Under the pieces are notes generated by a model, which saw nothing but the letters and a program-made list of their open reading frames with translations, was not told the origin of the DNA and did not search any database. 36,380 nucleotides of DNA from an uncultured Actinomycetes bacterium (GTDB lineage: Bacteria > Actinomycetota > Actinomycetes > Nanopelagicales > Nanopelagicaceae). Positions 13,116 through 18,277 of this stretch are shown piece after piece (positions within the stretch are counted from its first letter, which is position 1; each line of letters begins with the position of its first letter). A program made the position numbers and the translations under genes. The stretch is from positions 1-36,380 of the forward strand of contig CAIPAI010000058.1 in assembly GCA_903863015.1 (NCBI GenBank), in the 5' to 3' direction.

Positions 13116-13730
13116 TTATTCGGTACTGCTCTCAACTACTTCTTCGGCTACTGCTTCAACTGTTTCAGCTGAGGCGGGCGCTGATGCGGTAACTAACTTA
13201 GGCAAACTCGCAGGCTTACCGCCACGAGAAGGCCCAAGGACCATCACCATGTTTCGACCGTCTTGCTTAGGAGCAAATTCGATAAAGGCAATATCTGCTA
13301 CATCTTCAGCGAGACGTTGAAGCAATTTGTAACCCAACTCGGGCCTTGATTGCTCACGTCCACGGAACATGATCGTGATCTTGACTTTGTCACCAGCTTT
13401 AAGGAACCGAACTACGTGACCCTTTTTGGTCTCATAATCATGAGAATCGATCTTCGGACGGAGCTTCATCTCTTTGACCACAATATGAGTTTGGTTCTTA
13501 CGAGCCTCGCGAGCCTTTTGAGCTGCTTCGTACTTGTACTTTCCAAAATCCATAATTTTGCAGACAGGAGGCACAGCGTCAGGAGCAACTTCGACTAGGT
13601 CGAGATCTGCTTCCAAAGCTAGGCGAAGTGCTTCATCGATATCTACGACACCGATCTGCTCTCCTTCCACACCCACAAGGCGGACCTGTGGGACGCGGAT
13701 CCGATCATTGATCCTTGGTTCAGTGCTGAT
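13116..13730 (-). CDS. infC: translation initiation factor IF-3, AUC start
   Basis: IF-3 checks start-codon pairing and keeps ribosomal subunits apart. The N-domain ([19 protein letters not shown]) and C-domain ([16 protein letters not shown], then [17 protein letters not shown]) are intact. A short acidic tail ([14 protein letters not shown]) is typical of actinobacteria. The family N-terminus corresponds to an ATC codon at 13728-13730, preceded by AAGGAG with a 5-base spacer, and no ATG or GTG occurs nearby in a sensible place. AUU/AUC starts in infC are known to permit self-repression because IF-3 rejects them. The nearest in-frame ATG lies 24 codons upstream (13802), has no ribosome site and would add non-conserved residues. 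The protein would be 204 residues. Confidence 0.93.
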
Positions 13731-13814
13731 ACGTACTCCTTCGTGAGATGGTCGGCACTTTCGGCACTTCAATACTGATGCGACCAGTGGTGGTGCACTC
13801 AATGCTGAAGCAAT

Positions 13815-13850
13815 AAAAAAAGGGCCCTTAGCGACACGCGCAAAGAGCCC
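13815..13850 (-). terminator. intrinsic terminator in the infC leader
   Basis: On the minus strand GGGCTCTT (13843-13850) pairs with AAGGGCCC (13822-13829) in an 8-base stem with one G-U pair. The loop is 13 bases and a run of seven Ts follows (13815-13821). It ends 85 bases before the infC start and about 120 bases after the SseB-like gene. It may serve as the 3' end of the catabolic operon, as an attenuator for infC, or as both. Confidence 0.75.
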
Positions 13851-13914
13851 ACGAAGCAGCTTTCACTGCGACTACCAGGTCCGCCGTAACGTACGAGGTG
13901 GGAGAACTCTCCAC
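13828..13914 (-). CDS. possible infC leader peptide (28 residues)
   Basis: A GTG-started frame of 28 codons plus TAA. It starts MESSPTSYV and ends SWALCACR. The last codons and the stop lie within the terminator hairpin, so a ribosome finishing or stalling there would affect folding. There is no convincing ribosome site before the GTG; a second in-frame GTG (13866) is also weak. It is reported because of its position, and coding is not shown. Confidence 0.3.
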
Positions 13915-13970
13915 TTGCGTCTTAACCAACCAAAGTTCGATTGATCTGCCCTAAGGGTACCTGAGGTTCC

Positions 13971-14639
13971 TCAGCCCTCCAAAACGGGCAGGACAGCCAG
14001 GTCAATGCCTCGTTCCAAGCGAACGGTAACCTCAGGATCTGCGCTCAATTTCTCCATCACCCGGATCGCGACCTCGGTATCGGGCACCATCACAAGGACC
14101 ACGACCAGGTCGACCCCATCCTCGGCTCCGGGCTCTTTCAAGAAGGCAGTCGCCACTGGCTCTCCTTCAAGCGCGCGCTCGAGGGCCATCTCAATAGCCG
14201 GATCTTGCCACGCGGGGTAGAGGCGGTAACCCAGGGCCAGAGACCGCGCAGCAGCACCGGTGATGGAGAACCCCGCTCTTGCGGGATTCACCAGGACCCC
14301 CATGGCGCCTTCGGCAAGTGCGGCCGCTATTGCCTCGGCCGTCTCCGCGCGCAGCGGACGAGCTTGCGGATTCCATTCGAGCAACTCGGCAACGCCCGTG
14401 AAAACCGGCAGGATGCGCTCCCCCTCGTGTTCAATCCAGGCGAGGGACATTTCACTCTCTTGTTCAAGGCCTTCGTCGCTGCGCGAAATGAGCGTTGCTA
14501 GCAGCGCCACAAATACTCGTGAACGACCCAGCGCATCAGTGACCGCGTAGATATCGCGCGCTTCCAACGCATCACTCACGAAGTCGCGAGTGATGCCATC
14601 ATCACTCGCGGCCTCGGGAGAGAGTTGTGGGATCTTCAG
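13971..14639 (-). CDS. SseB-family protein, CTG start
   Basis: A 222-residue protein of the SseB family, whose members in actinobacteria are small cytosolic proteins of unknown function. Two SseB-like halves can be seen. The first is residues about 20-125, with [16 protein letters not shown], then [20 protein letters not shown] and [13 protein letters not shown]. The second is about 140-220. The family-like start is at [10 protein letters not shown], where CTG at 14639 overlaps the upstream TGA as CTGA. An ATG further upstream at 14783 would add 48 residues that only read the amidohydrolase gene in another frame. A GTG about 20 codons downstream is the other option. It is the last gene of the catabolic operon, possibly by chance. 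Confidence 0.7.
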
Positions 14640-15754
14640 TTGGCGCCCATATCTACGATTGCCGCGACAGGACCGCCACCTGGTGGGCCTTGGTGAGCAG
14701 CAGATACGGAAACGAAGACTGCAGGATCTCCAGTAACTGCTGCAGCTACTCCACCCACAGTTGCCTTGATCTGTCGATGCCAATGCACGTCAGAGTCATC
14801 GAGCATGGCGTTACGGCGGCCGCGGACCACACCGCCAGGTGAAACTTCGCACTTAAGGAAGACGTTGACTAAGCGACCTTTGATGTCACTGAAATGCGGA
14901 CGCTCCGGCAGATCCATTCCGGCATCGCGTATGGCTGCCCAAATTCCATCTGCATCGAGAGCATCTTCCATAACTGAATGGCCAATGCGGTAACGGCCGC
15001 CAATTCCACGCACGTTGCCTACAACCACGATTTGCGCTTGGTCTAATTCGACGCCAGAAGAGCAAGAAGCAACCTTGGAGTAAAGCTCAAGGTTCTTCAT
15101 GATCTCAGGGTCGGTCACGGACTTGATTTCTCCCAGAGCAAGAGCGATACCTAAACCAGTAGTGCCGTTTGAAAGGTCCATGGATTCGTGTGTGTGCTCG
15201 GTCCAAACTTCCTTGCCGCGTGCATGTGCATCACGAATCGTATGAACAGTGAGAAGTGGTGTCTTTGTCTGCACGTAGTGCACGTCTTTAGGATCGGTGA
15301 TGCCAGCGCGCTCCATAGCTATCTTCACTCCGGCAGCCACCTTGTTAACCATTCCGATGTAACCAATTTCTTCAGGAAGAATAGCTTCGCTCATCGCAAA
15401 GCCCACCGAGATGCGCGGCTCATCAGTCTTCTCAGCCTTGGCAGGATCGATAGTGGCGAAGATTGTGGCATGCGGACTAATCACACCATCTGTTCCACCT
15501 GACCAAACAATCGGTACCTGCATGGCATCTGCCGCGCTGCGTGTTCCCTTTTTGATAAGGACTTCGCGAAAAGCGCGATCGGCAATGATGCGCGTGTAAT
15601 CGTTGACGCCGCCATTGCCTTCAGTCTTACCGATGATTGCGATCACGCGATCGGCTTCGATGACGCCCGAATCGATGAGTTCCTCTAACCCGCTCGCATC
15701 ACTCACATTCTTGATTGGTACTTTACGAACTTCGATCGGAAGTGGCTTACTCAT
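14636..15754 (-). CDS. ring-opening amidohydrolase (barbiturase / cyanuric acid hydrolase family)
   Basis: A 372-residue member of the small AtzD/TrzD/barbiturase family, which hydrolyses one amide bond of a cyclic ureide. Barbiturase makes ureidomalonate; cyanuric acid hydrolase makes carboxybiuret. These enzymes have three similar domains, each supplying a Lys and a Ser. Family segments visible are [14 protein letters not shown] near residue 42, [12 protein letters not shown] near residue 87, VQTKTPLLT near residue 162, SCSSGVELD near residue 231, and [14 protein letters not shown] plus [15 protein letters not shown] near the C-terminus. No biuret or allophanate hydrolase is nearby, while CoA-transferase and carboxyltransferase genes suited to malonate are, which favours a barbiturase-like role. 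Substrate is not proven. The ATG overlaps the carbamate kinase stop by 4 bases. Confidence 0.88.
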
Positions 15755-16713
15755 ACTTGCTCCTTCATCTTGGGCGTCCCTCGGACGACTGTGCCATATT
15801 TTGCTACATCACTATCTATACCTTCAACACAACGCTCAATATTTTGCAGCGACGTAATAATTGAGATGCCACCATTTTCTGCAAAACGACATGCGCCAAG
15901 GACCTTGGGACCCATACTGCCCCCAGCAAACTCGCTCATCAGCGCGCGCATCTCGAGCGCCGAGGACTCACCGATCTGTCTTTGATTCTCTGTCCCCCAC
16001 CCAAGCATTGCGTGTGAAACGTCAGTGGCAATAACTAGAAGGTCACACTTCAGTTGAGAAGCTAGGACGGCCGCCGAAAGGTCCTTGTCAATGACCGCTT
16101 CAACGCCACGAAAACTCTTACCCTCGCGAATGACGGGGATTCCCCCACCACCACTTGCGATGACTACAAATTGCGCGTCAATGAGCGCTTCAATGCTTGC
16201 CACTTCGAGAATCGAAAGAGGATCGGGAGAGGCAACCACGCGACGCCAACCTTTGCTTCCGCGATCTTCCCACTGTTGCCCATGAGAAATAAGAAGTTGC
16301 GCATCCTCTTTAGGAAGGTAGCGACCAATGGGCTTTGTGGGGTGAGTGAAACCTTCATCTTGAGCGGAGACTTCAGTGCGCGTCACAATCGCTGCACACT
16401 TGCGATCTATCCCTCGTGACGACAAGGCTGCATCGAGAGCATTCAACATAGTAAAACCGATGGTTCCTTGCGTTTGCGCACCGCACCAATCAAGTGGAAC
16501 AGGTGGAACTACCGAAGCTGCAAGTTCATTCTTAACGAGGATGTTGCCGACCTGGGGCCCGTTGCCGTGTGTCAGGATTACTTGATGACCGGCACCGATC
16601 ATCTCGGCGATTGATTCCATCGCCGTGGTAATTGCCACGCGCTGATCCTCGGGGCGTGCACTTCCTTCAGGAGAGGTCATGGCATTTCCACCGAGTGCTA
16701 CCAAAATCCGCAT
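15751..16713 (-). CDS. arcC: carbamate kinase
   Basis: Amino-acid-kinase-fold enzyme interconverting carbamoyl phosphate plus ADP with carbamate plus ATP, usually run to make ATP. With the start at ATG 16713 ([12 protein letters not shown], with AAGG about 10 bases upstream) it has 320 residues, the usual length. A start 28 codons earlier at 16797 would add residues with no family match and overlap the carboxyltransferase gene. Conserved parts are [11 protein letters not shown] near residue 46, VVTRTEV-type [12 protein letters not shown] near residue 125, [12 protein letters not shown] near residue 190 and [12 protein letters not shown] near residue 275. No arginine deiminase or ornithine carbamoyltransferase is beside it, so its carbamoyl phosphate should come from this catabolic route. 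The symbol reflects family membership only. Confidence 0.92.
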
Positions 16714-16783
16714 GTCTATACCTTGCTGGCCATGGGAGATGATTGCGATGGGCAGACGTTGACGAGGTAAGTCAGAGTAACCG

Positions 16784-18277
16784 TCATAACTGACCAAGGC
16801 GTCGATAACGTTGACGTCTCATGCTGAGACGCTCAACTGGATCCATGTTGAGAAGCAGGACAATTTCGCGCTCGAGAACCTGAGCAACGCGTCGTGCAAA
16901 TTCTTGCGGCTCCAAGGCCGCATCGGGACGTTCGGCAATAATCCGATCAACAATGCCATTTCGCATTAATTCACGAGCCTTTACGCCTTGCGACTCCGCC
17001 ATCTCGTCGGCGCGATCTTTTGTCCGGTGAACGATTACCGAAGCACCCTCAGGAGGTAGCGGAGAGAGCCAGGCATTCTCTGCGGCTAATACGCGGTCGG
17101 CGGGAAGAATGGCTAGCGCGCCACCACCACTACCTTGGCCTAACAGCAGGCAAATTACTGGAGCCCGCAACTCCAATTGATCAGCAAGTGAACGTGCAAT
17201 TTCTCCCGCCAGTCCGCGCTCTTCCGATTCGCGCGAGAGAGCAGCGCCACCCGTATCGATAATGGTCACAAGCGGCAATCCCAATTCATTCGCAAGATGC
17301 ATGCCACGTCTTGCTTCGCGCAGCGCTCCTGGACCAAGCGCAACATTACGATGTGCGCGATCTTGCGCGAGGACTACAGCGGGAGCATTACCAAATTTGG
17401 CAAGCGCAAGCATCATTCCGGGATCGGTCTCACCTTCACTGGTTCCATGAAGCGGAACGACGTTGTTTGCGCCATAGCGCAAAAGAGAGCGCACGCCAGG
17501 GCGATCATGCTTACGGGTACGAAGAATGGATGTCCAAGCGCTTTCGTCCTGAAGAGATTCAACCGGCACTTCATCCACTAGAGCCACATCATGGCGCGGA
17601 GCAGTGAGCACGGTAAGCGCGCGGGCTGCCATATCAGCCAATTTCTCCGGAGGAAGAACTGCATCAATTAATCCGTGGGCGAAGAGATTCTCAGAAGTCT
17701 GTACGCCTTCAGGAAATGACTCACCATGGAGCGCCTCATACACACGCGGACCCAGAAAACCGATGAGAGCTTCGGGCTCGGCAACTGTGACATGGCCGAG
17801 CGAACCCCAGGAAGCAAAGACCCCGCCGGTGGTGGGATGGCGCAAATAAACCAAATACGGCAACCCAGCCTTGCGGTGCGCATTCACAGCTCCGGTGATG
17901 CCCACCATCTGTAGAAAAGCGACCGTTCCTTCCTGCATGCGAGTACCACCGGACACAGGCGCCGCAATCATCGGTAGGCCTTCACTCGTAGCCCGCTCAA
18001 ATGCCGACATAATTCTGGCCGCCGCGGCAGTGCCTATTGAACCTGCAAGAAAACCAAACTCGCCAACCACAACTGCTACCTGCATACCGCGAATAAGACC
18101 TTTACCAGTAACGATGGACTCGGTTAAACCGGTCTTCGCTCGGGCATCGACAAGCTCTTGGGCGTACTCCATCGAAATAGAAACTGGATCGCGTACTTCC
18201 ACATCCCATGACTCAAAGGAACCAGGATCGAGCACCAAAGCAATCAATTCGCGCGAGTTGAGCCGAGGAGTTTTCAT
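16784..18277 (-). CDS. fused AccD-AccA type carboxyltransferase
   Basis: A 497-residue protein joining both halves of the acyl-CoA carboxyltransferase. The AccD-like half (about residues 50-225) shows APVSGGTRMQEGTVAFLQM, HPTTGGVFASWGSLG and AEPEALIGFLGPRVYE. The AccA-like half (about 290-480) shows LGLPLVTIIDTGGAALS, EERGLAGEIARSLADQL and GQGSGGGALAILPADRV. The N-terminal four-cysteine zinc ribbon of E. coli AccD is missing. No biotin carboxylase or BCCP gene is nearby. It could carboxylate acetyl-CoA, act on another acyl-CoA, or work in the decarboxylating sense like the MdcD/MdcE subunits of malonate decarboxylase. It starts 7 bases after the CoA-transferase stop without a clear ribosome site. 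Confidence 0.88.
   Translation of the reverse strand: MKTPRLNSRELIALVLDPGSFESWDVEVRDPVSISMEYAQELVDARAKTGLTESIVTGKGLIRGMQVAVVVGEFGFLAGSIGTAAAARIMSAFERATSEGLPMIAAPVSGGTRMQEGTVAFLQMVGITGAVNAHRKAGLPYLVYLRHPTTGGVFASWGSLGHVTVAEPEALIGFLGPRVYEALHGESFPEGVQTSENLFAHGLIDAVLPPEKLADMAARALTVLTAPRHDVALVDEVPVESLQDESAWTSILRTRKHDRPGVRSLLRYGANNVVPLHGTSEGETDPGMMLALAKFGNAPAVVLAQDRAHRNVALGPGALREARRGMHLANELGLPLVTIIDTGGAALSRESEERGLAGEIARSLADQLELRAPVICLLLGQGSGGGALAILPADRVLAAENAWLSPLPPEGASVIVHRTKDRADEMAESQGVKARELMRNGIVDRIIAERPDAALEPQEFARRVAQVLEREIVLLLNMDPVERLSMRRQRYRRLGQL

Follow-up and report, generated by a model that had tools for sequence, protein, structure and literature searches.

Organization of the infC locus

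The window, by which we mean the whole stretch of 36,380 nucleotides that was analyzed, carries an infC-rpmI-rplT operon on its minus strand, comprising the reading frames of infC, encoding IF3 (13116..13730), rpmI, encoding L35 (12843..13040), and rplT, encoding L20 (12448..12810), the latter two assigned from their ORF translations. Judging from the sequence, infC almost certainly starts at an AUC codon (13730-13728) located after a Shine-Dalgarno sequence AAGGAG (13736..13741, minus strand), and this AUC is kept in most of the loci. Because the start context ATCAGCACT (ATC-AGC-ACT) is conserved over the loci, the TTG start at 13802 was judged to be an artefact of ORF calling. In E. coli, IF3 controls itself through a non-AUG start, and a non-AUG infC start would fit IF3 self-control at initiation. 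Farther upstream on the same strand (13971-18277), genes were read by eye from their translations as SseB-like, barbiturase/cyanuric acid hydrolase-like, carbamate kinase, and acyl-CoA carboxyltransferase-like, possibly representing a cluster for the catabolism of pyrimidines or urea derivatives.

All features of the region 13815-13914 lie on the minus strand. As claimed in the first-pass annotation of this DNA, a hairpin with a T-run is present ahead of infC. This intrinsic terminator (13815..13850) consists of a 5' arm GGGCUCUU (13850-13843), a 3' arm AAGGGCCC (13829-13822), and a T-run (13821-13815) corresponding to seven U in the RNA; with infC starting at 13730, it lies about 90 nt upstream of the gene. 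The hairpin folds with a predicted -24 kcal/mol within 66 nt (z = -2.7), and none of 200 shuffled sequences folded as well. A simple terminator scan missed the hairpin at 13815-13850, the probable reason being the scan's 8-nt loop limit. A small linker hairpin, GCAGU-GAAA-GCUGC, is predicted at 13856..13869. The region also contains a short frame of 28 codons, running from GTG (13914-13912) to TAA (13830-13828) and ending in SWALCACR, which an alternative TTG start at 13929 would lengthen to 33 codons. It had been described as ending within the 5' arm and loop of the hairpin; the frame indeed exists and crosses both, but its stop codon extends into the beginning of the 3' arm.

A conserved structured RNA in infC leaders

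Upstream of the hairpin, a variant of GGAG...CUCCCA or CUCCCACC was found in 86 of 99 infC leaders, preceded in most of them by AAG[C/U]. The near-invariant core, AAG[C/U]GGAG…CUCCCACC, belongs to an element whose helices P1-P4 form a junction. In well-behaved cases, this is a four-way junction composed of P1 (GACC/GGUC), a variable hairpin P2, a strand NCAAG[C/U], P3 (GGAG/CUCC), one C, and P4 (ACC...GGU).

An automatic four-way-junction parse gave spurious P1 choices, and covariance models were used instead. The first model was built from a seed kept to seven sequences, because P3 and P4 came out misplaced when lineages were mixed in MAFFT alignments, and it retrieved and aligned 57 loci. 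Covariation analysis, which the first-pass annotation had proposed as a check, came out in favor of a conserved structure. The 57-sequence alignment contained 27 pairs in five helices, 23 of which showed two-sided changes; paired cells amounted to 94.3%, compared with 79% after shuffling, and none of 500 shuffles reached any of the measures. When the partners were shifted by one to three columns, pairing fell to 33-52% and the signal was lost. These counts favor the structure somewhat, because the alignment was fitted to it, although the gap to the controls is still very large. A second model (R2) enlarged the set to 102 matches, 101 of them distinct, with the same covariation outcome; this number includes two additional weak matches at other places in L085 and L113. 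Within the family, all seven pairs of P2 covary. The outer G-C pair of P3 never varies among the 101 distinct rows, the next pair is constant in 99 of them, and in P4 the outer A-U and C-G pairs are invariant and the inner pairs covary. Taken together, these data identify a conserved structured RNA that is common to most of the infC leaders examined in the class Actinomycetes.

In the Frankia group (L033, L035, L036, L038, and L049), the infC leaders share a different core, GAGCCGUUCCCACGG, which the model only grazes; they may carry a diverged version of the element.

In the window, P2 is a 10-bp hairpin (13924..13946, minus strand, as are all parts of the element) that appeared in the unconstrained fold of the RNA from 13947 and is kept in congeners. 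It is followed by the junction strand GACGCAAGU (13913..13921), which contains the near-invariant CAAG[C/U] and whose GAC can pair with GUC at 13872-13870 as a P1-like helix. Next come the P3 stem-loop GGAG-AGUU-CUCC (13901..13912), with the invariant outer pairs, an unpaired C (13900) conserved in the CUCCCACC core, and the P4 stem ACC...GGU with an inner helix (13874..13899). The core with P3 and P4 (13916-13897) folds unaided, P1 is shrunk to GAC/GUC, and P4 has one mismatch. The R2 model matched 13870-13950 with 17.0 bits and an E-value of 0.54 (about 0.5-1 over the loci that were searched), a weak match but one exactly at the expected place; the window's congeners scored 18-22 bits and the sister lineage L006 scored 45 bits. 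A whole-genome search returned no match for the window copy. Given this low score, we consider the window copy a divergent member, recognized by its position, its core motif, and its congeners rather than by its score.

Promoter position and restriction to infC

In 81 of 102 loci, the element is preceded by a TANNNT box whose end lies 5-10 nt 5' of it, the distance being exactly 8 nt in 35 loci (0.18 expected per position). This phasing makes the element the very likely starting point of transcription; in the window, the candidate -10 box of the infC leader promoter is TACCCT (13954..13959, minus strand, read from the window sequence), and the start is predicted near 13947 on the minus strand.

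A search of 296 Actinomycetota genomes gave 23 matches at E ≤ 1e-3, one per genome; every one came from the window's class and was located upstream of infC. When the class itself was searched, 174 of 247 genomes, covering 76 of 92 genera, had a match at E ≤ 0.05. Among the class matches sampled, 19 of 20 were upstream of infC, the remaining weak one lying in a stretch without an IF3 motif, and a match upstream of infC was present in 42 of 43 genomes inspected. Nearly every genome with a match has just one. The infC leader of L088 (CAMAYZ010000021.1), titled Bifidobacterium breve, looks identical to that of the freshwater family member L016, and L088 is probably a mislabelled metagenome-assembled genome.

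Rfam has no family covering the element across the class, and a search of the window at E up to 10 returned none, apart from chance matches to human RNAs. In the Streptomyces-type loci L113 and L118, RF02830 (Scr1601) spans the same stretch upstream of infC with 184 and 170 bits, respectively (gathering score 100). On the Nocardioides-type locus L101, it scored 33 bits, below the 100-bit cut-off, and none of the window genome and 15 relatives exceeded the cut-off. The RF02830 model extends from P1 to the terminator U-run, as expected of a terminated leader.

A terminator and a predicted alternative pairing

The strand running from J23 through the 5' strand and loop of P3 is complementary to a downstream segment, with a mean duplex energy of -26.7 kcal/mol over 117 loci. 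When partners were swapped among loci, the mean was -23.2 kcal/mol (sd 0.28), and the best of 1000 permutations reached -24.2 kcal/mol; the test is conservative, because relatives share both parts. Variable positions of this antiterminator pairing show many two-sided pair types that differ by lineage, and the two strands thus coevolve. In 35 of the 55 loci with a terminator, half or more of its 5' arm falls within the complementary segment, and 92% does so in the window, where the 5' arm and loop (13832..13851, minus strand) pair with 13921-13902, including the 5' strand of P3, in a duplex of -21.5 kcal/mol.

The unaided fold of the RNA from 13947 contains P2, P3, P4, and the terminator and has an energy of -42.6 kcal/mol; the antiterminator state reached -39.7 kcal/mol. 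Without the terminator 3' arm, the best fold was the antiterminator, at -40.3 kcal/mol. By sequence and predicted folding, the leader thus has a terminator and a mutually exclusive antiterminator, as an attenuating ribosomal protein leader does. A kinetically decided switch would look like this, energies alone being no proof.

In mycobacteria, the best complement mostly misses the terminator arm. This is so in L094, L102, and L104 and in the similar L117, which keep the element and a terminator, and the switch there must be wired differently. The many family members without a T-run must also work otherwise. A general sequestration of the Shine-Dalgarno sequence in terminator-less members was considered and found unsupported, the mean Shine-Dalgarno pairing being 0.70 vs 0.64 and the states alike. 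In a few freshwater relatives (L011, L015, and L016), CUCCACCUG is complementary to CAGGGGGGAG. In the same three and in L024 and L052, all freshwater loci without a T-run, GCGACUGUCUCCACCUG complements the aptamer strand and part of the Shine-Dalgarno sequence CAGGGGGGAG, which hints that the switch may act on translation there.

Proposed mechanism and candidate ligand

Attenuation at the infC leader is very likely. We consider it probable that the hairpin serves as expression platform in a conserved leader RNA through which infC-rpmI-rplT regulates itself, with L20 as the most likely ligand. The first-pass annotation had raised the prospect that Actinobacteria have their own, distinct version of the L20-controlled infC leader, acting through termination, and the covarying element, the promoter, and the antiterminator all speak for it. 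In the proposed scheme, transcription from near 13947 on the minus strand would give an RNA that folds into the P2/P3/P4 junction. An operon product, most likely free L20, would bind and hold this fold, leaving the P3 5' strand (GUGGAGAGUUC) occupied; the terminator GGGCUCUU...AAGGGCCC-U7 would then form, and transcription would stop before infC. Once new 23S rRNA has drawn off the L20, the P3 5' strand would pair with the terminator 5' arm, and infC-rpmI-rplT would be read through.

L20 is our best guess for the ligand because the infC operon of B. subtilis is analogous and because AAGUGGA recurs at the L20 site of 23S rRNA. Actinobacterial 23S rRNA has CUAAGUGGAAAAGG at the H40/H41 internal loop, which we take to be the known L20 site, and the leader CAAGUGGA equals it except for the first base, a match of 7 nt on one strand only. 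The resemblance of the leader core CAAG[C/U]GGA to CUAAGUGGAAAAGG is suggestive only; the leader pyrimidine is often C, and it is U in both actinobacterial 23S sequences read. The assembly that contains the window yielded no 23S rRNA, and sequences from relatives served for the comparison.

The same leader switch might instead answer to a ligand other than L20, such as IF3, L35, or a small molecule, a reading that we regard as rather doubtful. It would agree with the Rfam L20_leader model (RF00558), which gave no match in the window and exceeded the gathering score in none of 40 class genomes, and with the self-control of E. coli IF3 through its non-AUG start. On the other hand, the element is confined to this operon, L20 is the known regulator in two other phyla, and the AAGUGGA match falls at the L20 rRNA site, all of which point back to L20.

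The first-pass annotation had also allowed that the hairpin might simply end the upstream operon. A same-strand gene does end at 13971, 120 nt upstream of the hairpin, but the promoter box and the conserved element lie between this gene end and the hairpin, and in the majority of terminator-bearing loci the terminator arm is complementary to the aptamer strand. In M. tuberculosis, moreover, lysX, the gene upstream of infC, is divergent (PMC3207917), so that there is no upstream operon to end. We therefore consider it unlikely that upstream termination is the only or main role of the hairpin. Orientation of the upstream gene as judged by the longest frame was left unused, being unreliable in G+C-rich DNA.

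Scr1601 is catalogued as an sRNA in Streptomyces, and an RNA of this type might be primarily a trans-acting sRNA that is only incidentally made from the infC leader; the placement before infC, fixed across genera, the terminator/antiterminator design in cis, and the assignment of the S. ambofaciens homologue to a UTR (PMC8388888) make this very improbable.

Least credible of all is ribosome-mediated attenuation, in which translation of the 28- (or 33-)codon frame with stalling at its W/C codons would choose between terminator and antiterminator; the frame is present and terminates inside the hairpin, but it is lost within the genus, its proposed start lies inside the conserved RNA core, and it has no Shine-Dalgarno sequence in front. 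Of three congeners, L003 and L004 meet a stop after 9 and 6 codons of this frame, respectively, and L005 has 37 codons in it; L006, from a sister lineage, lacks a start codon for it and reaches a stop after 14 codons. When 99 leaders were scanned for W/C-rich ends around this place, only the window and L004/L057 had the SWALCA end, which reads SWALCARR in L004/L057, where the GTG-started frame stops far upstream. The GTG of the window frame falls within the near-invariant AAGUGGAG core of the structured RNA. No conserved leader frame with regulatory codons, as a leader-peptide attenuator has, was thus found among these leaders, and the peptide model was dropped: close relatives keep the hairpin and not the frame, and base pairing is conserved instead of a peptide.

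Relation to known systems

The preferred reading of an autoregulatory leader agrees with what has been described in other bacteria. The infC leader of M. tuberculosis is 326 nt long and has a UTR/CDS read ratio of 2.6-4.9, and those who described it suspected that it parallels the L20 system and named no element (PMC3207917); the published homology between the M. tuberculosis infA and infC leaders has no second model match to correspond to it. Expression of Scr1601 was confirmed in S. coelicolor (PMC8388888). In the infC leader of the same operon in B. subtilis, the terminator is favored when L20 binds (PMC6097659; PMC10931766). No infC or L20 leader from Actinobacteria is in the list of Eckert and Weinberg (PMC7247131); the open-licence literature was covered, and an earlier report in a subscription journal is conceivable.

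A broader proposal, which in our judgment could go either way, is that a single unrecognized class of ribosomal protein leader governs infC-rpmI-rplT in most Actinomycetes genera and mimics H40/H41 of 23S rRNA to sense free L20, Scr1601 being its terminated product. If so, Actinobacteria, including mycobacteria and streptomycetes, would have their own autoregulation of the infC operon, with a structure unlike those of Bacillus and E. coli, and the catalogued sRNA Scr1601 would be reassigned as the product of a cis-regulatory leader. It would also be an independent case for the evolution of ribosomal protein leaders, in which binding and termination are testable in ordinary laboratory strains.

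Among known systems, leader-peptide attenuators of Actinobacteria (ilv, cys, and whiB7 type) likewise have a terminator in the leader; the infC leader, in contrast, is without a conserved peptide. Scr1601 (RF02830) corresponds to Streptomyces-type representatives of the element, lying before infC and extending from P1 to the terminator, whereas the Rfam model has another secondary structure and an sRNA label, and the window and the tested non-Streptomyces relatives fall below its cut-off. Eckert and Weinberg (2020) listed candidate ribosomal leaders that follow the same ribosomal protein leader logic, among them another L20 leader, from Deltaproteobacteria (PMC7247131). The L20 hallmarks described there are two G-C pairs and an AA dimer, and both kinds of feature are present in the actinobacterial element. 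The L20 leader of B. subtilis (RF00558) shares with it the infC-rpmI-rplT operon, an intrinsic terminator before infC, and a protein-stabilized fold expected to promote termination, which is putative for the actinobacterial element, whereas the architecture of the actinobacterial element is different.
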